Virus record (IMG/VR): IMGVR_UViG_3300007734_000493
Location: 1-23,455 of that record
Length of the DNA stretch: 23,455 nucleotides
Source of the DNA: a virus
Direction: 5' to 3' (one strand)
Below, in pieces: positions 5,317 to 22,284 of the stretch. The stretch's first letter is position 1; the number at the start of each line of letters is the position of its first letter. The notes under the pieces are model-generated. The model worked only from the letters and a program-made list of their open reading frames with translations. It ran no database searches and had not been told where the DNA came from. The position numbers were made by a program, and so were the translations under genes.

Positions 5317-6605
5317 TATTGCAACGCTCCATAATTAACCATCTTGAACCCGCTAGGATGCTCAATAACGGCTTCCGGCATGACTCGTTCAACTTCATCA
5401 GCCATTACGCCGCGTTGACGTTCTCCAAATATGTCATATTCGTATATGCCGATTCCAATCGGATGCGTTCCAACTCGTTCAATGTTGGACTTCAGTCTGC
5501 GGTCTGAAAAATACATTCCTGCCGCTTGAGCACCCGCACCAAGCAACCCATAAAGGCCAGCGTTTTGAGCGTTTACGTTAGCCGATTGAATACCATAGTT
5601 TTGCGTATTGGCTTGTCCTTGGGCTTGCGTCCCCGCCATCACCGGAGCAGGTGCTACGTTCTGTCCCGTGTAACCTTGAAATTGCGGCATCTGCAATTGA
5701 CTTCCAGACATTAGCCCTGAAATCTCGTTCAGCGGTTGATTTCTTAACGCCAACTGTTGCTGTAGTGATTGCTGCTGCGCGGTATTGCCAAACTGCCCAC
5801 CTTGCAACGCTTGGTTGTAACCTTGAGCGTTTGCGGCAGTATCAAGATTAATTCCTTGCAATGCAGCTTGTGAAAGTAGGTCATTTTTCTGCTGGTTCAC
5901 ATCAATCATCGCATTCGTGTAAGCCTCGCCGCCAGGGGTCAAGCCTTGGTTTGCAAGTCTCGTCCTTGTAGCGGCTTCCTGACGATCTAGTTGCGGCTGA
6001 AGTCGAGCCATGATTGCTTCTTGGCCTGTCGTGCCGGCATTGACAGGCATTCTCGCAATGCCGCTGGTATCTAAGGACGTTTGGATGCCGGGAAGGTTGG
6101 GATTAAACCGCGTTCCAAGGACATTCCTTGCCGTTCCAATTCCTTGTTCGCCAAGGTTTGCAAGGCTCGTCTGCACCCGTTGTTGAGCCTCTAGCGTTTG
6201 CTGCGCTTGCGGGTTAAGCGTTTGCGTAACGGTAGGCTGATCGTTTGGCGTTGAAGTGGTGTACTGCTCACGGGTTGGCGCGATCGGAGCTACACCACCA
6301 CCTTGCCCGTACATCGGCGTGGTTCCGTCCTCACCGCCATAACCAATAATCCCGCCTTTACCGCCCGTCGCGTTGTACTGCTGCAACTGCTGGTTATAGG
6401 CTTGATTCGCCTGATCGTAGGCCGATTGATTGAACTTAGGAGTAGCGTCCCCGTAGGTTACGACTTGCGAACCCAAAGGTCCGTAAATATTGGGATTAGA
6501 CATCCTGCCGCTAATCCTCGCTGCATCGGCATTAGCCGCTCCTTGCGCGGTTGCAGCTGCCGCGTAATCAGGTGCGGCTGGTGCGGACGGTGAACTTTTT
6601 CCCAT
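5316..6605 (-). CDS. Ejection-region virion protein with short C-terminal S74-like domain (429 aa)
   Basis: ATG preceded by AGGAGA. The first 30 residues are Ala/Ser/Pro-rich (SAPAAPDYAAAATAQGAANA), followed by a Gln/Asn/Gly-rich helical region with many alternating Ala and Gln up to about residue 360. The last 63 residues match the start of an S74 chaperone domain: Ser367-Asp-Arg-Arg-Leu-Lys372, then IGIGIYEYDIF and GVMADEVERVMPEAV. The domain is much shorter than the usual 110 or so residues and lacks the C-terminal coiled coil present in the tail fibre of this window. The Ser/Lys dyad is intact, so self-cleavage near residue 366 is possible but unproven. It is most likely a virion component of the ejection group, given its coupled downstream neighbours. 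Confidence 0.78.
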   Translation of the reverse strand: MGKSSPSAPAAPDYAAAATAQGAANADAARISGRMSNPNIYGPLGSQVVTYGDATPKFNQSAYDQANQAYNQQLQQYNATGGKGGIIGYGGEDGTTPMYGQGGGVAPIAPTREQYTTSTPNDQPTVTQTLNPQAQQTLEAQQRVQTSLANLGEQGIGTARNVLGTRFNPNLPGIQTSLDTSGIARMPVNAGTTGQEAIMARLQPQLDRQEAATRTRLANQGLTPGGEAYTNAMIDVNQQKNDLLSQAALQGINLDTAANAQGYNQALQGGQFGNTAQQQSLQQQLALRNQPLNEISGLMSGSQLQMPQFQGYTGQNVAPAPVMAGTQAQGQANTQNYGIQSANVNAQNAGLYGLLGAGAQAAGMYFSDRRLKSNIERVGTHPIGIGIYEYDIFGERQRGVMADEVERVMPEAVIEHPSGFKMVNYGALQ

Positions 6606-7011
6606 GTTTCTCTCCTAAAAATCTGCAATCATCTTTATGCAAGGTCAGGAAGACTATATCTCCCTCCGGCCTTCCATCCTTGATTCTGCCTTCCTCGGCA
6701 AAACCCATGTTTTTAACCATCTTCATAGATTTCTCGTTATCACTTCCTACCGGCACGATGATCTTGTCCACCATCGCTACGTTAAACGGATAGTCAAATA
6801 TCGCTGCTAAGTAAGCAGGGGTCATCCGGCCTTCTATCGCTATGTGGCACCAAATGCTCTTGTGGTTCCAGTTCTCGTAAATCACGCCAGCAACAATTTC
6901 ATCATCCCGCTTCAGCCCGATAGCCTGTGACCGCTCTTCAAAATACCCACCTTGGACGCGTCGAGCGACCCAATGGCCGATCTCCGCGCCAGTCGTTATA
7001 TTCCAGCCCAT
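6568..7011 (-). CDS. GNAT-family acetyltransferase
   Basis: I choose the ATG at 7009-7011 (147 aa): it has AGG five bases upstream, whereas the longer GTG reading from 7044 has no good ribosome site. The fold pattern fits GNAT: hydrophobic strand IVAGVIYENW, then SIWCHIAIEG, then the acetyl-CoA region VDKIIVPVGSDNEKSMKMVK followed by NMGFAEEG, the usual 'N...A.. . GF...G' ending. It transfers an acetyl group from acetyl-CoA to an unknown acceptor. The gene overlaps the 3' end of the upstream tail gene by 16 bases and runs 38 bases into the start of the next gene, so it is embedded in the virion operon. A role in modifying a virion or host protein is inference; similar GNAT genes often occur at this site in podophages as I recall. 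Confidence 0.85.
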   Translation of the reverse strand: MGWNITTGAEIGHWVARRVQGGYFEERSQAIGLKRDDEIVAGVIYENWNHKSIWCHIAIEGRMTPAYLAAIFDYPFNVAMVDKIIVPVGSDNEKSMKMVKNMGFAEEGRIKDGRPEGDIVFLTLHKDDCRFLGEKHGKKFTVRTSRT

Positions 7012-8552
7012 CCGACCTGATAAACCACATCGGTAGATGCCCACTCAATTTCTAGCCCAGCACTAGCACTCGTCAGAAGAACCGCACCGCAGTAGCCCAA
7101 TCCCGTAACCCCCTGCCAGTTGTTTGTAATCTGCAACCCAGAACCCCAGTAAGATACATCCCAAGTTCCAACGTCCCACTTACCAACCGAACTAGGCGAA
7201 AACGATAATGGCGTTGCGTTGTTCTGAACGTCAAAATCTACGTTTATGCCGACGGAAATAGCAGGGGTTCCGTTGGTGAAAATACTTGGTCGCGCACGGG
7301 TAAAATACTTCTTCACGCCACGCGAACCGAGATAATTAAACGCTTGCAGGGCGTTGGCAGAGATGCTCGTGCCATTGTCCGAATAACTCGTATCCCACGC
7401 CTCACCGACAAAGCCATTCCCGCCAAAGAAAGGATCATCGCCAAAGTTCTCCCAGACGTTAGCTTCCCATCCGGTGAACTGGCACCATGACTTCGTAATT
7501 GTATTCATGGCGTATTGTTGTTGGAGCGAACCGTCAGAAACGGGAATGTTAATCCAAACCGCGTTACGCTTGGCGTTGTAGAAGACCTGCCACCCAACGG
7601 AAGAATGTGTCCCACCGTAGTCCGTAGTGGCTTGTGTAATCGCTCCCTGAATCTTGTTCGACAGCGCAACCCTGGGATCAAGCCTTGATGATTGAAGACT
7701 TGATGCCATCGGCATCAGACCGTCATAAGTCAGGATTAGCAGATCGCCGCCCCATTTGAGCATGGCTCGTTTAGAAATAGGGCTACCGAGCTTCCAGACC
7801 CCCGCTAATGCCCATGTAGCCTCGCTTGATGGGTCAGTACCTCGATAAACGATGACCTCGCCATTGCTCGTTATAAAAGCTAGGTTGTCATCCATGCCAT
7901 AGCCCGCGTCAAGCGTCCAAGTATCCAGATCAACCAGATGCCCCCCGGCTTTAGCGATGGAACTGAGATCGAGAACTTGAGCTGCTCCTCCTACGGCAGA
8001 AGTCGGTAGATACCATGCTTTCAGCGTGTTTTTTTGGATAAACCAGACGCGGTTTTTGAATAGGGTGACGTTATCAAGAGTTGTCGTGGTTACGCCGGTA
8101 ATCGCCGGGGTCGAGGCGTTATCTATAGATACCCAAGTCGTGCCATCGTAGAGCAAGGGCTTATCAACGCCATTAACCGCGTAGATGTACGATCCACCAG
8201 CAGTAGTTACGTTCGTATATTCCCAGATAGCGTTAGTCAATCCGGTGACGACAGCGGCTCCTACAGCCCCTCCAGCAGTCGCATCGTATATAGAAAACGA
8301 TGGAGTCCCGACCACCGCAAAGAGCTTTTCAGTCGCCCCGCCGGAATACGCGAAAAGGCTCTGAACCTGACCATTCATTCCCGTAGCGTAACGGTTATAC
8401 CCGCCGCGCAAGACGCAACTGCTCACGGTCGGGAAATAATTGACTAGCGTTACCGCGTCCATCGGCTCCATATTGGCGATTGAATCACGCGCATTCCACC
8501 CGCCGACAGGGGCAGGGATAGACTGCACATTGGCAGCGGTTCGTTGAACCAT
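6996..8552 (-). CDS. Tail/connector beta-propeller-like structural protein (518 aa)
   Basis: The best start is the ATG at 8550-8552, preceded by GAGAAG at the right distance and 16 bases after the upstream stop; the frame is open to 8636 but this would overlap the upstream gene without a ribosome site. The protein is beta-rich with repeated short strands and Gly/Thr/Trp turns (SLFAYSGGATEKLFAVVGTP, LLYDGTTWVSIDNAS, GEVIVYRGTDPSSEATW, LLILTYDGLMPMASSLQ), a look shared with beta-propeller tail proteins such as P22 gp10, although I cannot confirm that family. Near the end (residues about 459-469) is WDVGTWDVSYW, a motif partly shared with a small head protein at 15230-15832. It is probably a head-to-tail stabilising or tail hub component. 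Neighbours support a virion role. Confidence 0.76.
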   Translation of the reverse strand: MVQRTAANVQSIPAPVGGWNARDSIANMEPMDAVTLVNYFPTVSSCVLRGGYNRYATGMNGQVQSLFAYSGGATEKLFAVVGTPSFSIYDATAGGAVGAAVVTGLTNAIWEYTNVTTAGGSYIYAVNGVDKPLLYDGTTWVSIDNASTPAITGVTTTTLDNVTLFKNRVWFIQKNTLKAWYLPTSAVGGAAQVLDLSSIAKAGGHLVDLDTWTLDAGYGMDDNLAFITSNGEVIVYRGTDPSSEATWALAGVWKLGSPISKRAMLKWGGDLLILTYDGLMPMASSLQSSRLDPRVALSNKIQGAITQATTDYGGTHSSVGWQVFYNAKRNAVWINIPVSDGSLQQQYAMNTITKSWCQFTGWEANVWENFGDDPFFGGNGFVGEAWDTSYSDNGTSISANALQAFNYLGSRGVKKYFTRARPSIFTNGTPAISVGINVDFDVQNNATPLSFSPSSVGKWDVGTWDVSYWGSGLQITNNWQGVTGLGYCGAVLLTSASAGLEIEWASTDVVYQVGWAGI

Positions 8553-10024: not shown

Positions 10025-10390
10025 TTAGGTTTTCGTACCGTTGATGCTGTACCACATTGCGTTCGTGACCGCGAAAAGGATGCTTGTGTGATCCTTTGCA
10101 ATAGAACCTGATGTGGTTTGATTTATCGTTGTCGCGGCTTCATACGGATAAACTTTAATCGTACTGTTGCCGGAATTGGCTATGTAGATCGTTGATCCCA
10201 TTTGTGTCGGTGGTAACAAAACACCAGTTCCGGCGGTTGAAGTATCAATCGAGTTGTAAACGTGCGTCAGTTGTAATGCGTCTGTTCTGGTCGATCCTGT
10301 CGCGGTCAGTCCGTCAACGCCATCACCACAGATGGCAACGGTCATTAACTGAGGTGCGCCAGCACCAAGAACCCGCGATGGGATCGTCAT
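10025..10390 (-). CDS. Small virion-region protein, tandem paralog A (121 aa)
   Basis: ATG at 10388-10390 overlaps the stop of the preceding paralog by one base (TAATG). The product begins MTIPSRVLGAGA and is beta-rich with Gly, Thr and Ser. By eye it is about 40% identical to the 119-residue neighbour: shared blocks are IPSRVL, ICGDG, DALQL, LPPT, YP and TIN. Small beta proteins in pairs close to a capsid gene are often head decoration, spike or fibre-base proteins, but I recognise no named family. Function is therefore unknown; a virion surface role is a guess from context. Confidence 0.75.
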   Translation of the reverse strand: MTIPSRVLGAGAPQLMTVAICGDGVDGLTATGSTRTDALQLTHVYNSIDTSTAGTGVLLPPTQMGSTIYIANSGNSTIKVYPYEAATTINQTTSGSIAKDHTSILFAVTNAMWYSINGTKT

Positions 10391-10749
10391 TATGCTGTCA
10401 GAACAGATGCCCAAGTCGTTGCGCTAGTCGCAAACAGGATGACGGTCTTCGCATTTGCAACCGACAAGCTAGATGCGGCTGCGTTAATCGTTGAACCCGC
10501 TTTTGGATAAATAATAATTGTTGAGCCGGAATCATTGCGAACGCCAACCATCGCGCCCACTTCAGTCGGAGGAAGAATCAGCCCGGTAGAAGCGGAGCTA
10601 GTCGTCACCGCATTCCAAACCGCCGACAGTTGCAGGGCGTCTGCAATAGTGCTACCAACAGCCACCAAAGCGGTAGCACCATCTCCGCAAATGCTAGTGG
10701 TTGCAAGACCCGAATTGCCGGACGCCAAAACTCTTGAGGGAATCGCCAT
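10390..10749 (-). CDS. Small virion-region protein, tandem paralog B (119 aa)
   Basis: ATG preceded by AAGGAG, which lies inside the last codons of the DUF115-methyltransferase gene. The product (MAIPSRVLASGNSG...) aligns along its whole length with the next gene, from the shared IPSRVL start through ICGDG, DALQL, LPPT and TIN, indicating a tandem duplication followed by divergence. It ends with a hydrophobic strand (AKTVILFATSATTWASVL), the usual final strand of a small beta sandwich. No catalytic motif is visible. Function unknown; see paralog A. Confidence 0.75.
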   Translation of the reverse strand: MAIPSRVLASGNSGLATTSICGDGATALVAVGSTIADALQLSAVWNAVTTSSASTGLILPPTEVGAMVGVRNDSGSTIIIYPKAGSTINAAASSLSVANAKTVILFATSATTWASVLTA

Positions 10750-10751
10750 TT

Positions 10752-12053
10752 TTACAACTCCTTATTGATGTAGAAAAATGCTGCATACGAATTGTGGTCA
10801 GACCAGATCAATTTATAGTCTGCCAACTTGTCCAACCACCAGTGATACGGAAACACCGATAAATGCAAGGGTTGCCCGATTAATTTGCCCATATTATCAG
10901 GCACAAGACTTATCTGGAAAAAACATGAATCCACGCATTCCATGACGTTTCTAATCACGGAATCCACGTTTTCAGGAGCAATATGCTCCATAACGTCCGT
11001 GCAATAACCAATATCGCCCTTGACCCCGATCCTCTTGGTCAAATCGGCAATGGTCAGCGGGAAATTAATGCCCTTATCCAAGCAATTGCTGGAAAAGTCC
11101 ACCAGTTTAAGACTCGCGCCGGTCAGTTCGTGAATGCGTTTTGCGCCCCGTCCCGTCCCGCAGCCAAAGTCTACAACCAACGAATCCTTGGTGATTTCGG
11201 CTACTTTCACGAACGCATCGGCTATGAGTTCGCCAGGAGCCGTGTCCCGGTAGGCAGGGATAGCCCACATCTGGCGGTATTTCTCGTCCTCTTCCATCGG
11301 AGCTGCGTGTTCCCGCATGGATTTGACCACCTCCATAATGAGACCATCACCGTCAACCGTGATAATGCAGCCAAGATCAATCAGGTTATTGCAGACCTCG
11401 GGGAAGATTTCGGCCTGTCGCGCCATCGTCAGCGAACTAGTGAAAACACGCCCATTCATGGTGACTTTGCACAGCGGGTCGCGGTTATTCATGGCTTGCA
11501 GATAAGCATGACCCATCGCTTGCCGGTGGCTTGAATCGTAGCCAAATAGGTGAATCTTGCGGTAGCCCATCGTGTACGCTAGGCACATGGTGGACATTCC
11601 CACGGTCGTGCCGCCGCCGATTAGCGCGTATTCGTCTTTGTATTCTGGGAGATGAGTCTCTATGCCTTCCATAGCAGGATGCCATGTAGTGACGTTCCCA
11701 ACCGCTTCAAATAGCGTCGGATGGCACTGGGAGGAAATCAGGTATTCCTCTGCCTTGCCGATCAGATCAATGTTTTCAGGTCGAGCGTCTAGGATGACCT
11801 GATATTCCGGCACTATGCCGTGACGGTTCAAAAACTTGGCTGCGCCGTTTAGCGCAAAGATGGTTTGCCCGAATGATCGCCGTTTTTCGATCATAGGGAG
11901 GAATTCGGCCAAAGAAGGACCACCGCCGACAATGATGGCATGACCATCATGCGGGGGTACTTGAGCAATCCAACGATTACAGGATCGTGCATTCAGACTG
12001 ACATTGCCAAACAACTCGGCATCGTCCGTGTTGCAAATGATCTCAATATCCAT
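10752..12053 (-). CDS. DUF115 (MptE/Maf-like) domain fused to SAM-dependent methyltransferase (433 aa)
   Basis: Two domains can be read. Residues about 35-240 resemble DUF115, the family containing 6-hydroxymethylpterin diphosphokinase MptE-like and flagellin glycosylation Maf-type proteins: GGGPSL at 43-48, IFALNGAAKFLNRHGIVPEY, VILDARPENI, IGGGTTVGMSTMCLAY and HLFGYDSSH. Residues about 265-430 form a Rossmann methyltransferase: VVDFGCGTGRG at 293-303 is the SAM loop, LVDFS at about 317 the acidic strand-2 end, and YCTDVMEHIAPENV the motif before the post-I strand. A role in modifying a glycan or nucleotide sugar on the virion or host surface is inference. The gene sits between the head genes and the small paralogs. 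The only strong ribosome-site-like sequence (AAAGGAG, 12089-12095) lies 35 bases before the ATG, with a small hairpin in between. Confidence 0.83.
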   Translation of the reverse strand: MDIEIICNTDDAELFGNVSLNARSCNRWIAQVPPHDGHAIIVGGGPSLAEFLPMIEKRRSFGQTIFALNGAAKFLNRHGIVPEYQVILDARPENIDLIGKAEEYLISSQCHPTLFEAVGNVTTWHPAMEGIETHLPEYKDEYALIGGGTTVGMSTMCLAYTMGYRKIHLFGYDSSHRQAMGHAYLQAMNNRDPLCKVTMNGRVFTSSLTMARQAEIFPEVCNNLIDLGCIITVDGDGLIMEVVKSMREHAAPMEEDEKYRQMWAIPAYRDTAPGELIADAFVKVAEITKDSLVVDFGCGTGRGAKRIHELTGASLKLVDFSSNCLDKGINFPLTIADLTKRIGVKGDIGYCTDVMEHIAPENVDSVIRNVMECVDSCFFQISLVPDNMGKLIGQPLHLSVFPYHWWLDKLADYKLIWSDHNSYAAFFYINKEL

Positions 12054-12096: not shown

Positions 12097-12630
12097 TTAG
12101 GTGATACGACCTTGCAGATGCGGACGGTTCATCACCACCGTTACCGTAGTGGTAGCCGAGGCAACCGTAGCGGCATTGGCTGTACGAGCACCGAGAATCT
12201 CCTTGCCCGAACCCGTGGCACCAACTTTACCGACAGACTTCACGCCAACGGCAACCGTAGCCGCAAAGTTAGACGAGGTTGATTTAGCGCAAACCGCAGT
12301 ACCTTCGATCTGATACCAACCGAACAGACCGGCAGTACAAGCGGACATTGCCACGGCAACAGGACGAGCCTGGTTAGCCGTTACAGCGGCCAGCGTGGTC
12401 TGATAGGTCGTGCCGTCATACGTGACCAGCGACCCTACAGCGGTGCTTGCTACGCCAACGAGCAGGATGAATTCACCCGCCCCGTAGGTCGGATCGAAAG
12501 CGCGTTCGATCTGACCCAAGACCGCCGGAGGAGTCGGGATTGCACTCGTTCCGTTAGCCATCGTTACACCAGCATCGGTATTTGCAATTTGCAGCAATCC
12601 CGACTTATTGTCGTCAAAAGTGTATGCCAT
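12097..12630 (-). CDS. Putative head decoration-type protein (177 aa)
   Basis: ATG preceded by AAAGGAG, 12 bases after the capsid stop codon. The product is beta-rich and dominated by Ala, Thr, Val and Gly (FILLVGVASTAVGSLVTYDG, ARPVAVAMSACTAGLFGWYQ, ATVASATTTVTVVMNRPHLQ). This composition and the location directly after the major capsid gene fit a capsid decoration or cement protein, a common arrangement in phages. There is no enzymatic motif. I cannot name a family; the role rests on position. Confidence 0.7.
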   Translation of the reverse strand: MAYTFDDNKSGLLQIANTDAGVTMANGTSAIPTPPAVLGQIERAFDPTYGAGEFILLVGVASTAVGSLVTYDGTTYQTTLAAVTANQARPVAVAMSACTAGLFGWYQIEGTAVCAKSTSSNFAATVAVGVKSVGKVGATGSGKEILGARTANAATVASATTTVTVVMNRPHLQGRIT

Positions 12631-12642
12631 TTTAATTCTCCT

Positions 12643-13892
12643 TTAGGCAATCAGGACGCCGCAAAACTGCGGGCCGCTGGATGTCAAATTGCCTGCCCAA
12701 CCAATGAGCTTAACAACCATTCTGTTACTTTCAGCCTTTCGGCTTACTGACCTTTTCAGGCGGGGAAACTTCTTCGAGTCTCCCTCACTCGCTTTTTTTG
12801 TTATACGAGTGTTCAGACTATCGCATCCGGAAATTCCGGTCTTCTCACTTAGTCGTTCACGCTGCACACTTACGCTGCTTGCGCCCTGTTGCCCACTTCT
12901 GGGTTTCCAAGTCAATAAGAGAAGATTTATAGACGCCATTTGCAAGCTCAATGCAAAGTTTGTTTAGCGTCTTGGTTGATCGCTTGACGTTCGCCGCCGA
13001 TCGGGACAAAATTTCGATCCGCGTGTGGCCTGAACATCATGTATTTGGTGTTCAAGAACCACATATGGTTAGCAGTCGCGGCAGAGCCGATACCACCGTC
13101 CAGAACTACATCGGATGCCATACCCGCGCCGTAGTATTTCAGCGAAGCAAAACCAGCACCGGCCATGCTGCTGCCGGAATCGGAAATGCGCTGAATCGAC
13201 TGAAGCGATTGCAGATACAAACGATAGTAGTTATTGTCAGCCACGATCAGGTCGGGCTTATCCGTACCGCGAATCAACTGCACAGCAATCGCATCCATGT
13301 ATTGCTGGATGTTGCTTGCCGTAACAGCCGAGCCGCCATCGGTTACGCCCGAATACTTCGTAGAACGCCAGAACGTCCAAGTGGCACGGTTAATACCACC
13401 GTAGGTTCCGGTACTAGGCGCATCAGGAGAAAGAGCACCGAGTCCGGTGATGTTCTTGCCCGAATTACCAGTTCCGTCCAAATATATATCCGAACCGATA
13501 CGGTTAGCCAGTTGCGCCTCGGCTACGTTCATACGACCGTCAAGCAGGTCAATGATCGCTTCCTTGCCGCTGTTCTGGATCATCTCCAGACCGCTGATAG
13601 AAACCGCAGCAGCGTACTGAGTGATCGAAAACTGAGCGGCCGAAATCGGGCTATTCTGACTGACGTTCAGCACTTCATAGCCGCTATAGCTATTCGTGTT
13701 GTTGGTCGTCGAATCGTTGTACATGATTTCTTGCAGGATGACGTTACCGCCGGAGAATGTTTTCACATTTCCGCGTTCTTTCAACCTGCGCAGAAGCGCA
13801 TTATTATTTGTTACGTTATCGGCCAGTTCACCGCTGCGACTTTGGATGTTGGTCGCAATGATGTCACTGATCGAGCTATTGGCGAAAGCCAT
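12643..13892 (-). CDS. Major capsid protein, interrupted by a group I intron (exons 13892-12966 and 12717-12643)
   Basis: HK97-type coat protein, spliced length 333 residues. ATG at 13890-13892 has AAGGAG upstream. Exon 1 codes residues 1-309: opening MAFANSSISDIIATNIQSRS, a helix with LLRRLKERGNV, strands such as VNAEAQLANRIGSD-like pattern (seen as MNVAEAQLANRIGSDIYLDG), and the end HMWFLNTKYMMFRPHADRNF then ERQAINQDA. Without splicing the frame adds only KQTLH and stops (TGA 12948-12950). The conserved terminal segment VVKLIGWAGNLTSSGPQFCG VLIA lies at 12717-12643 in frame after excision; coat proteins of this type, as I recall them, continue from NQDA straight into such a segment. The scaffold gene lies just upstream and a decoration-type gene just downstream. 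A sequencing error is unlikely because 248 bases separate the two parts. Confidence 0.88.
12718..12965 (-). ncRNA. Self-splicing group I intron in the major capsid gene (248 nt, no ORF)
   Basis: Pairings read directly on the coding strand. P1: exon GACGCU (12971-12966) with guide GGCGUC (12937-12932), giving a U.G pair at the 5' splice site; P1 is extended by UUUGCA/UGCAAA. P3: UCUUCUC (12925-12919) with GAGAAG (12846-12841). P4: CUUG (12911-12908) with CAGG (12888-12885), flanked by GAAA and CAA. P5: CCC (12903-12901)/GGG (12894-12892). P6: GCGC (12884-12881)/GCGU (12862-12859). P7: GACUA (12854-12850) with UAGUC (12820-12816). P8: CCGGA/UCCGG (12839-12827). P9: CACUCG (12811-12806)/CGAGUG (12791-12786). 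Two further hairpins carry GAAA loops (near 12752-12761 and 12734-12745). The last base is G (12718). Only three bases separate the 5' P7 strand from the 3' P3 strand, so no P7.1 is present; this argues against subgroup IA. No convincing P10. No endonuclease ORF. Confidence 0.93.
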
Positions 13893-15835: not shown

Positions 15836-16291
15836 TCAGGCAATTCGGATCAGCGCGTTCGTTGCGTCGCTGGTTGGCATCGTCAAAGTAAAAGTACCCG
15901 CCGTAATGGTCTGACTGCCAAACGTGTGAACGCTGATCGCTTTGTTTGATTGCGTTGAGTTATAGACAAGAACAGCGTCAAAAGCAGTTGTTAATGTCAC
16001 GCTGGTATAAGTAAAACTCGCGCTTGGCGTCCAGTATCCCGTTGTGCCGCTTGTTGTCGGCGCGGTAGCGTTTGTGACTGTTATGCCGCCTGCGCTATAG
16101 CCAGAACCCGAAACCTCGCCTGTCACGCTATATGCTGTCGTTGCGGCATCAACTGTTGCGCTTGCTAGATACAAAGCCGCTTTCAACGTATCGGCTCCGG
16201 TTCCAGCTCTAATGACAGTGGTTCCAAGCGCATGAATTCCCGACAGAATTTCACCTTTAAAACTGGTACACATTGCTTGGGTATTAGCCAT
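15836..16291 (-). CDS. Small beta-rich phage protein (151 aa)
   Basis: Start at ATG 16289-16291, preceded by GGAGG five bases upstream; it overlaps the previous gene by eight bases. The product begins MANTQAMCTSFKGEILSGIH, a pattern recalled from phage proteins near the portal, and continues with beta-rich Thr/Ala/Val sequence (TTVIRAGTGADTLKAALYLA, SASFTYTSVTLTTAFDAVLV). It has no catalytic motif. A minor head or decoration role is possible; function is unknown. Confidence 0.75.
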   Translation of the reverse strand: MANTQAMCTSFKGEILSGIHALGTTVIRAGTGADTLKAALYLASATVDAATTAYSVTGEVSGSGYSAGGITVTNATAPTTSGTTGYWTPSASFTYTSVTLTTAFDAVLVYNSTQSNKAISVHTFGSQTITAGTFTLTMPTSDATNALIRIA

Positions 16292-16478
16292 CGAATCCTC
16301 CAACCTCAGAAATTGAAACTAACGGTCTTTTCAGGCTGACATGAGCCGACCTATGCACAAGCTCTCCGTCTAGGTAATACTCAACCCAAGTCGTATTCTC
16401 GTTGTCGTTGTCAACGCTTCCCTCTTTCTTGTTTAGCAGGGAATCGTCCATCTCGCCTTGCGTGGTGGTTACAATCAT
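16284..16478 (-). CDS. 64-residue conserved-type phage protein
   Basis: The ATG overlaps the portal TGA as ATGA. The product (TTTQGEMDDSLLNKKEGSVD, then TTWVEYYLDGELVHRSAHV) matches a short protein pattern I recall directly downstream of portal genes in related phages. Acidic N-terminus, then a beta hairpin. Function unknown. Coupling to the portal supports that it is translated. Confidence 0.78.
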   Translation of the reverse strand: MIVTTTQGEMDDSLLNKKEGSVDNDNENTTWVEYYLDGELVHRSAHVSLKRPLVSISEVGGFDG

Positions 16479-21027: not shown

Positions 21028-22284
21028 TCATGCAGCGAGTTTGACCGGAATGAATGCTTCTCCGTTTGATTCCAGCGTTGCTGTCTGTCCTGTGAATTCC
21101 TGCCAGCGTTGGACGATGACATCGCAGTATTTTGGGTCGAGTTCCATGCTGCGGTTGATGCGGCCTGTTTTCTCGCAAGCGATTAATGTGGAACCAGAGC
21201 CTCCAAACAGGTCAAGCACAGCATTTCCTGCTTTTGTGCTGTTTCCTATTGCTTTTTCCATTAAACCGATAGGCTTCATGGTTGGATGCAATGCTGATTT
21301 AAGGGGTTTATTCACTTCCCATGTAGACATTTGGCTGTGATCTCCGTACCAATTGTGCGATTCGCCATCCTTCCAACCATACATAATCGGTTCGTGCTTG
21401 TAGTGGTAATCCATTCGACCAAGCACATGATTATTCTTAACCCAAATTATCGTGTGCTTTAACTGCCAACCCGCCTTAAGAATCATCATCATCATCATCA
21501 TCATCAATTCTCCCCTTTGGGGGCCACAAATGTAATAAACCGCTTTATCGGTTGTCACTAAATGCGCGTTTGAAAATGATTGAAACCATAATTCGCCAGT
21601 TTCATCGACCGCCATGTGGTCGTTGAGTATTGGAGTTTGAATGCAATTTCCTTTGCCAACCGCATTCAAACTCTTGTTTTTTTCAGCGTAGGACACCCCG
21701 TAAGGCGGGTCAGAAAAGAAAATTTCGGCTTTGCTGCCATCCATCAGCTTCTCAACCGCATCAATGCTGGTCGAATCGCCGCACATAACCCGATGCTTGC
21801 CCAGAATCCATACGTCTCCAAGTTTGGTTACGGGTTCCGGTGGCAACTCCGGCACAGCATCTTCGTCGGTTAATCCCTCAACGATGGTAGGGGTTAACAG
21901 GGTATCAATTTCCTCTGCGCTGAATCCGGTCAGATCAAGGTTGAAATCCATATCCTTCAGGTCGGTCAACTCCACCGCCAGCATCTCGTCATCCCAACCC
22001 GCATTCAGGGCCAGCTTGTTATCCGCGATGACGTAGGCTTTTTTTTGAGCCTCGGTCAAATGGGTTAGACGGATACTGGGAATGTCAGTAATCGCTAACT
22101 TCCTTGCCGCCATGACCCGTCCGTGGCCTGCAATGATGCTGCCCGTCTCGTCAATAAGCACAGGATTGGTAAAGCCAAATTCCTTAATGCTGGCAGCAAT
22201 CTGGGCTACTTGAGCATCGGAATGGGTGCGGCTATTCCTAGCGTAAGGAATCAGCGCATCCAGCTTTACCTGTTCAATTTTCAC
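21028..22284 (-). CDS. ParB-like domain fused to DNA methyltransferase (orphan)
   Basis: A 418-residue fusion. Residues 4-95 form a ParB/Srx-type domain (LIPYARNSRTHSDAQVAQIA, then NPVLIDETGSIIAGHGRVMA with the GHGR motif at 53-56). Residues 155-400 form an N6_N4-type methyltransferase with order IV then I: DPPY at 192-195, WVKNNHVLGR, HPTMKP at 333-338 and DLFGGSGST at 358-366. DPPY suggests adenine-N6 methylation; the target sequence is not predictable. The start is GTG, overlapping the previous stop as GTGA. No restriction enzyme is adjacent, so it is likely an orphan enzyme for anti-restriction or packaging/replication control (inference). Residues 261-267 are seven consecutive Met from an ATG repeat. 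Confidence 0.93.
   Translation of the reverse strand: MKIEQVKLDALIPYARNSRTHSDAQVAQIAASIKEFGFTNPVLIDETGSIIAGHGRVMAARKLAITDIPSIRLTHLTEAQKKAYVIADNKLALNAGWDDEMLAVELTDLKDMDFNLDLTGFSAEEIDTLLTPTIVEGLTDEDAVPELPPEPVTKLGDVWILGKHRVMCGDSTSIDAVEKLMDGSKAEIFFSDPPYGVSYAEKNKSLNAVGKGNCIQTPILNDHMAVDETGELWFQSFSNAHLVTTDKAVYYICGPQRGELMMMMMMMILKAGWQLKHTIIWVKNNHVLGRMDYHYKHEPIMYGWKDGESHNWYGDHSQMSTWEVNKPLKSALHPTMKPIGLMEKAIGNSTKAGNAVLDLFGGSGSTLIACEKTGRINRSMELDPKYCDVIVQRWQEFTGQTATLESNGEAFIPVKLAA
21484..21504. repeat. (CAT)7 trinucleotide repeat inside the methyltransferase gene
   Basis: Seven perfect CAT units on the + strand encode seven Met on the coding strand. Unit changes keep the frame, so they would alter the length of a Met run rather than switch the gene off. 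Confidence 0.9.

Follow-up and report, generated by a model that had tools for sequence, protein, structure and literature searches.

The gene at positions 10752..12053 on the (-) strand of the viral DNA analysed here, a stretch of 23,455 nucleotides (hereafter the window), is probably the core of a phage glycosylation cassette aimed at the virion, in which a Maf-like DUF115 domain would put a sugar on the neighboring head protein, here called deco, and a fused methyltransferase (MT) would cap it. The encoded protein contains both domains, each conserved among relatives; the gene is inherited together with that of deco, and its place in the head gene block (the slot) is shared in relatives with glycan-tailoring genes. 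Public records label phage DUF115 proteins as 'pterin diphosphokinase MptE-like', and the literature that we searched contained nothing relevant on DUF115 or 'MptE-like' proteins in phage virion modification.

The 433-residue reading frame has the place, strand and length given in the original prediction, and the four motifs named there, GGGPSL, IGGGTT (residues 145-150), GYDSSH and VVDFGCGTGRG, are all present. Its identification draws on the list of ORFs, matches to PF01973 and phrog_24759, relatives in IMG/VR and an alignment of fusions; with relatives encoded in 245 candidate IMG/VR stretches, the ORF is not a product of chance. Sixty-six positions are invariant in an alignment of 28 fusions, including D295-x-G297-x-G299-x-G301-x-G303, D319, D353, M355-E356-H357 and H397/W405/W406. 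The gene is under purifying selection, with a whole-gene dN/dS of ~0.04-0.06 against its two nearest relatives at synonymous sites close to saturation, and AlphaFold modeled the whole protein with a mean pLDDT of 87 and a pTM of 0.62. Full-fusion relatives, sought to assign a host to the window lineage, came from metagenome-assembled bins only, and when 50,697 phage records were searched at the protein level, a single relative emerged, which matched just the methyltransferase half.

The window is an Mx8-like podovirus, with its genes arranged, the fusion aside, as in Myxococcus phage Mx8 and its kin (TerS - TerL - portal - scaffold-like - MCP - deco - DUF115-MT - g119 - g129 - g207 - tail - head closure - GNAT - S74 protein), and the fusion gene lies inside the virion block as predicted, preceded by the MCP and deco genes and followed by two ~120-aa genes and the adaptor/tail genes. 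The major capsid protein (MCP; 12948..13892, (-) strand; phrog_9953, 1.9e-96) is 49-53% identical to the MCPs of Mx8, Mx9, Stenotrophomonas phage BUCT555 and a Bradyrhizobium phage (49-51% for Mx8/Mx9). Deco (12097..12630, (-) strand), the proposed acceptor, is a 177-aa head protein that matches phrog_29386, a virion structural protein family (1.7e-19), and is a probable surface decoration protein, judging from gene position and the annotation of Mx8-type relatives; a profile search of the PDB for the deco fold gave no credible match. The Ser/Thr content of deco (mean 0.209 versus 0.12-0.17 in the deco of Mx8/Mx9/MW202489) was considered as a sign of O-glycosylation and set aside as uninformative, the short proteins found without DUF115 (see below) reaching even 0.240. 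The two genes downstream of the cassette, g119 and g129 (10025..10749, (-) strand), occur whether or not the cassette is there; they look like tandem paralogues whose products both start with x-I-P-S-R-V-L, and in relatives the second gene of this type is lengthened to 273-283 aa by an extra C-terminal part (L142:9239-10090, L154:7996-8823).

Three further genes of the window deserve mention. A GNAT acetyltransferase (6568-7044; phrog_4470, 2e-32) lies between the head closure and S74 genes, a position kept in Mx8, Mx9 and most relatives, and is possibly another virion-modifying enzyme. The product of 6996-8636 matches phrog_5107 'amidase' (1e-130), yet annotations of its relatives point to head closure or stabilization proteins, which makes 'amidase' look like a mislabel. 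The third gene, 21028-22284 (phrog_498, 4e-160), lies upstream of the terminase genes and joins a ParB-like domain to an N6/N4 DNA methyltransferase.

Deco and the DUF115 gene move as one unit, as seen in their class pattern, in tree switches and in distance correlations. Loci were collected by searching with the MCP, which kept DUF115 from biasing the selection; among the dereplicated loci spanning the slot, 31 carried deco (177-183 aa, or a related 159-aa form) with a DUF115 gene and 15 carried a ~98-aa protein without DUF115, and there were no mixed combinations. All 130 dereplicated loci, a set biased by the inclusion of DUF115-baited loci, comprised 106 with deco and DUF115, 17 with the short protein and seven distant phage records lacking DUF115; the IMG/VR loci are pieces of the genomes of uncultured viruses. 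In a tree built from MCP, g207 and tail protein (57 loci), the deco and short-protein classes interleave, with at least five class switches forced by the starred branches of what is a quick tree with some long branches. Pairwise distances over 89 loci gave r values of 0.72 for deco-DUF115, 0.37 for DUF115-g119 and 0.27 for MCP-deco, and the partial correlation given MCP, g207 and tail was 0.67 (p <= 0.0005) for deco-DUF115 and 0.11 for DUF115-g119. Joint recombination of the adjacent deco and DUF115 genes could account for part of the correlation, but g119, the other immediate neighbor of the DUF115 gene (usually 2-16 bp off), is equally close and does not share it. DUF115 was confined to the head slot in 23 of 25 long contigs, one of which, G008, shows it at either end of the contig, and was missing from the two short-protein contigs. 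A DUF115 gene was missing from the slot in every related phage record that we inspected; three of the seven distant ones (Mx8, Mx9 and MW202489) carry a deco homologue there nonetheless, and deco therefore does not need DUF115 everywhere.

The same linkage might arise if the enzyme glycosylated some other virion protein (a tail protein, the MCP or the products of g119/g129), with deco simply carried along, a reading that we regard as unlikely. These proteins come from the same late operon, and other lineages have the DUF115/MT pair directly behind the MCP or between two phrog_644 proteins, as such a role would allow. However, phages lacking the cassette share MCP (~90-96% identity), g119 and g207 with those that have it, and the distances of these three hardly follow those of DUF115.

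Slot variants in relatives include DUF115 alone and DUF115-MT, and the partners of the two domains are predicted enzymes of glycan building and tailoring. A glycosyltransferase (phrog_1962), DUF115 and Methyltransf_24 are joined in one 655-659 aa protein at L177 and L199. The slot of L140 holds DUF115, GT4-like, methyltransferase and GT8-like genes, the GT4-like call being a weak Pfam match made on the L148 homologue and the GT8-like match falling just below the Pfam cut-off, and that of L310 holds DUF115-MT, a polysaccharide pyruvyltransferase (above cut-off) and a second DUF115. A second, DUF115-only gene was also seen right after the fusion at L079:9284-10063, where the longest reading frame slightly overlaps.

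A scan for the pair in other phages, with the MW202621 methyltransferase as query/profile (row L284:7994-8540 of alignment A4, in the wrong frame, was excluded), returned 21 ORFs in the order DUF115-MT, 40 in the order MT-DUF115 and also split genes. The 40 reverse-order ORFs imply that the pairing arose more than once, and that the domains were joined repeatedly, either way round, suggests a single product to which both activities contribute. A phrog_644-family protein is encoded next downstream of 33 of the 40 MT-DUF115 fusions. In MW202621 and a Lysobacter dokdonensis locus (L284, in an apparent prophage of strain DS-58), a Gp13-like MCP is followed directly by the MT and then by a DUF115-like gene, the L284 capsid being judged by eye and the DUF115 assignment of both partners being weak (hhalign 65%). 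Downstream of a phrog_1005 MCP, L299 has sialyltransferase-like, MT and sulfotransferase genes in that order. Several loci offered observations of their own: at L338 and similar loci, the MT-DUF115 fusion is flanked by two phrog_644 proteins, to one of which the 155-aa protein of the window (15836-16303) is related (phmmer 4e-22); at L322:3518-5488, a dual-specificity phosphatase domain, a methyltransferase and DUF115 form a triple fusion; and at L296, L298, L299 and L302 an MT gene lies directly before a sulfotransferase-like gene, called above the Pfam cut-off in L299 and by P-loop sequence only in the other three, pairs that suggest sulfated virion glycans.

Glycan-modifying enzymes are common among phage morons, and the slot varies among Mx8-like phages, BUCT555 having other genes there; both would fit an enzyme that alters a host surface glycan (lipopolysaccharide or capsule) against superinfecting phages and reached the head operon by chance insertion. 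We consider this quite improbable, since neither strict co-segregation with the type of head protein nor recurrence next to unrelated capsid genes would be expected of it, and since lipid-carrier or membrane glycan enzymes were not seen adjoining the gene. Modification of a virion surface glycan, a role already raised in the original prediction, is favored by the co-segregation with deco and by the presence of other glycan enzymes in the slot of related phages.

The N-terminal half (residues 1-250; 11304..12053, (-) strand) bore out its assignment to DUF115, as PF01973 (MptE-like, formerly DUF115/MAF_flag10) matched residues 36-176 (11526-11948) with an E value of 1.7e-19 and 70.6 bits against a gathering cut-off of 34.6, within superfamily range. 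Across 24 diverse DUF115 domains, G43 and S47 of GGGPSL (residues 43-48; 11910..11927, (-) strand), a nucleotide-binding-type loop, are invariant and G45 and P46 nearly so; D89 is likewise invariant and R91 nearly so, and G171, D173 and S174 are invariant in GYDSSH (residues 171-176; 11526..11543, (-) strand). Searched against the PDB, a profile from 24 diverse phage DUF115 domains (A2) matched Magnetospirillum Maf (5mu5) best (1.3e-11), archaeal HPPK second (1.4e-5) and Cst-II-type sialyltransferases third (~0.01). Structure prediction, a check proposed at the outset, agreed: AlphaFold modeled this half with a mean pLDDT of 88 and a pTM of 0.88, and Foldseek with the model ranked Maf 5mu5 first (2e-9, TM 0.69 on query, a match limited to the central domain with an rmsd of 9.2 over 274 columns) and archaeal HPPK (8sd5) second (3e-7), with human sialyltransferases found too (~1e-3). 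On this order of profile and fold matches, the DUF115 half belongs to the Maf/sialyltransferase/HPPK superfamily and leans to Maf. The central Maf_flag10 domain of Maf/PseD is recognized by profile (1.3e-11) and Foldseek (2e-9) alike; full Maf membership, as judged from the sequence, fails on architecture and on the NCBIfam PseD model (full three-domain Maf), which scored 22.8 bits against a cut-off of 670, over residues 38-90 only.

Were the DUF115 half instead a nucleotide or pterin diphosphokinase like MptE, the fusion would yield a modified pterin, nucleotide or DNA base precursor, and both the naming of the Pfam family after MptE and the second rank of archaeal HPPK among the structural matches would follow. 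We rejected this as the main explanation and find it very improbable. The DLDGD acidic cluster of the solved archaeal HPPK aligns to ILDAR in the phage protein (D89-A90-R91; 11781..11789, (-) strand); Maf is closer by profile and fold; the partners are glycan enzymes, not pterin or DNA-modification enzymes; and DUF115 was missing from the cassette-free contigs tested, two short-protein relatives of ~33-34 kb. Of the two kinships originally drawn for DUF115, the Maf-like one therefore stands and the pterin kinase-like one is weakened, as is the suggestion of a methylated nucleotide product.

The C-terminal half (residues 255-433; 10755..11291, (-) strand) matches phrog_24759 'methyltransferase' (1.3e-11) and, weakly and below all cut-offs, several Pfam methyltransferase models. 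The SAM methyltransferase appears complete, as first proposed: the SAM-binding loop VVDFGCGTGRG (residues 293-303; 11145..11177, (-) strand) is intact, the class I pattern of a glycine-rich loop (D295xGxGxGxG) followed by acidic D319 is invariant in the 28 fusions, and CTDVMEH in the motif IV region (10983..11003, (-) strand) is invariant or nearly so. Foldseek matched this half to O- and N-methyltransferases alike, including structures with bound SAM/SAH, which would suit an MT that methylates deco itself while DUF115 only binds or positions the substrate, but this is hardly credible given that in many phages the DUF115 ORF has no methyltransferase part (forms of 255-264 aa, and L171:7553-8395, which is nearly identical to the DUF115 gene L169:7553-8902 minus its methyltransferase domain, a natural in-frame deletion) and that methyltransferases from different families join DUF115. 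This retention of DUF115 without the MT marks DUF115 as the core of the proposed cassette.

In the glycosylation mechanism that we favor, the Maf-like DUF115 domain would move an activated sugar, drawn from the host pool, to Ser/Thr of deco, encoded just upstream, and the C-terminal methyltransferase would O-methylate the deco-bound sugar as a cap, giving a capsid with a methylated glycan coat that plausibly tunes adsorption, stability or recognition. The linkage of a putative glycosyltransferase to virion genes is seen in the gene content itself; its glycosyltransferase activity, the catalytic steps and their order, the sugar donor, the residue modified and any advantage gained are inferred. 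The host is the suggested source of the sugar donor because CMP-sugar synthetase and epimerase genes, the two families sought, were absent from 25 long contigs, some possibly incomplete. The original statement that the substrate cannot be read from sequence still holds for the sugar donor; for the acceptor, comparison points to deco.

A bolder generalization, plausible and stopping a little short of probable, is that aquatic phages have recruited the Maf fold for a glycosyltransferase dedicated to capsid decoration, and that the enzyme, its tailoring domains (methyl, pyruvyl, sulfo and further sugars) and the acceptor are exchanged as one coat module on a conserved head, akin to capsid serotype switching. 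If so, the 'MptE-like' label would hide a widespread family of capsid-glycosylating enzymes, each DUF115 enzyme would gain a testable acceptor gene, and phages would swap head surface chemistry as a module while keeping the shell, with a bearing on particle stability, adsorption and recognition. Such pairs would also offer compact two-gene (acceptor plus enzyme) systems for protein glycosylation, and if ordinary tailed phages do cap their capsid sugars with methyl groups, the benefit of capping could be put to the test.

Comparison with known systems places the fusion between several precedents. Its head module has the order of Mx8/Mx9 (TerL - portal - MCP - deco - p50 - tail - GNAT), which lack a DUF115 gene between deco and p50. 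With archaeal MptE (6-hydroxymethylpterin diphosphokinase, 8sd5) it shares a superfamily fold (E 3e-7), but the phage protein lacks the DLDGD cluster, and the solved MptE chain has no fused methyltransferase. Maf O-glycosylates Ser/Thr of flagellin, and its Maf_flag10 domain (pfam01973) resembles Cst-II (PMC11339370). Like Maf (PseD, 5mu5), the phage protein has a Maf_flag10/PF01973 domain and, as we propose, a surface-assembly protein as acceptor; unlike Maf, it lacks the N-terminal Rossmann-like and C-terminal helical domains and carries a methyltransferase instead, and its gene adjoins a head gene rather than that of flagellin, the protein to which Maf/PseD transfers a nonulosonic acid, with head and tail genes as neighbors in the window. 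Virion glycosylation has been described in mycobacteriophages (Freeman et al. 2023, Cell Host Microbe, as cited in PMC13313380), and phage glycosyltransferases, together with methyltransferases in some actinobacteriophages, are held there to act on virion proteins; the host groups met here are not mycobacteria. A parallel in architecture is A064R of chlorovirus PBCV-1, which combines two glycosyltransferases with a SAM methyltransferase responsible for capping the glycan of the capsid (PMC9614988) and, like the phage fusion with its predicted activities, joins a glycosyltransferase-type domain to a SAM methyltransferase. PBCV-1 is an unrelated virus, however, domain 1 of A064R has a GT-A fold, and the PBCV-1 capsid carries N-glycans; a DUF115 domain is not described there (PMC9614988). 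Virus-encoded capsid glycosylation with terminal methylation is established in PBCV-1, and what appears new here is the Maf-type enzyme, its modular swapping together with a head protein, and the repeated pairing of DUF115 with a methyltransferase.
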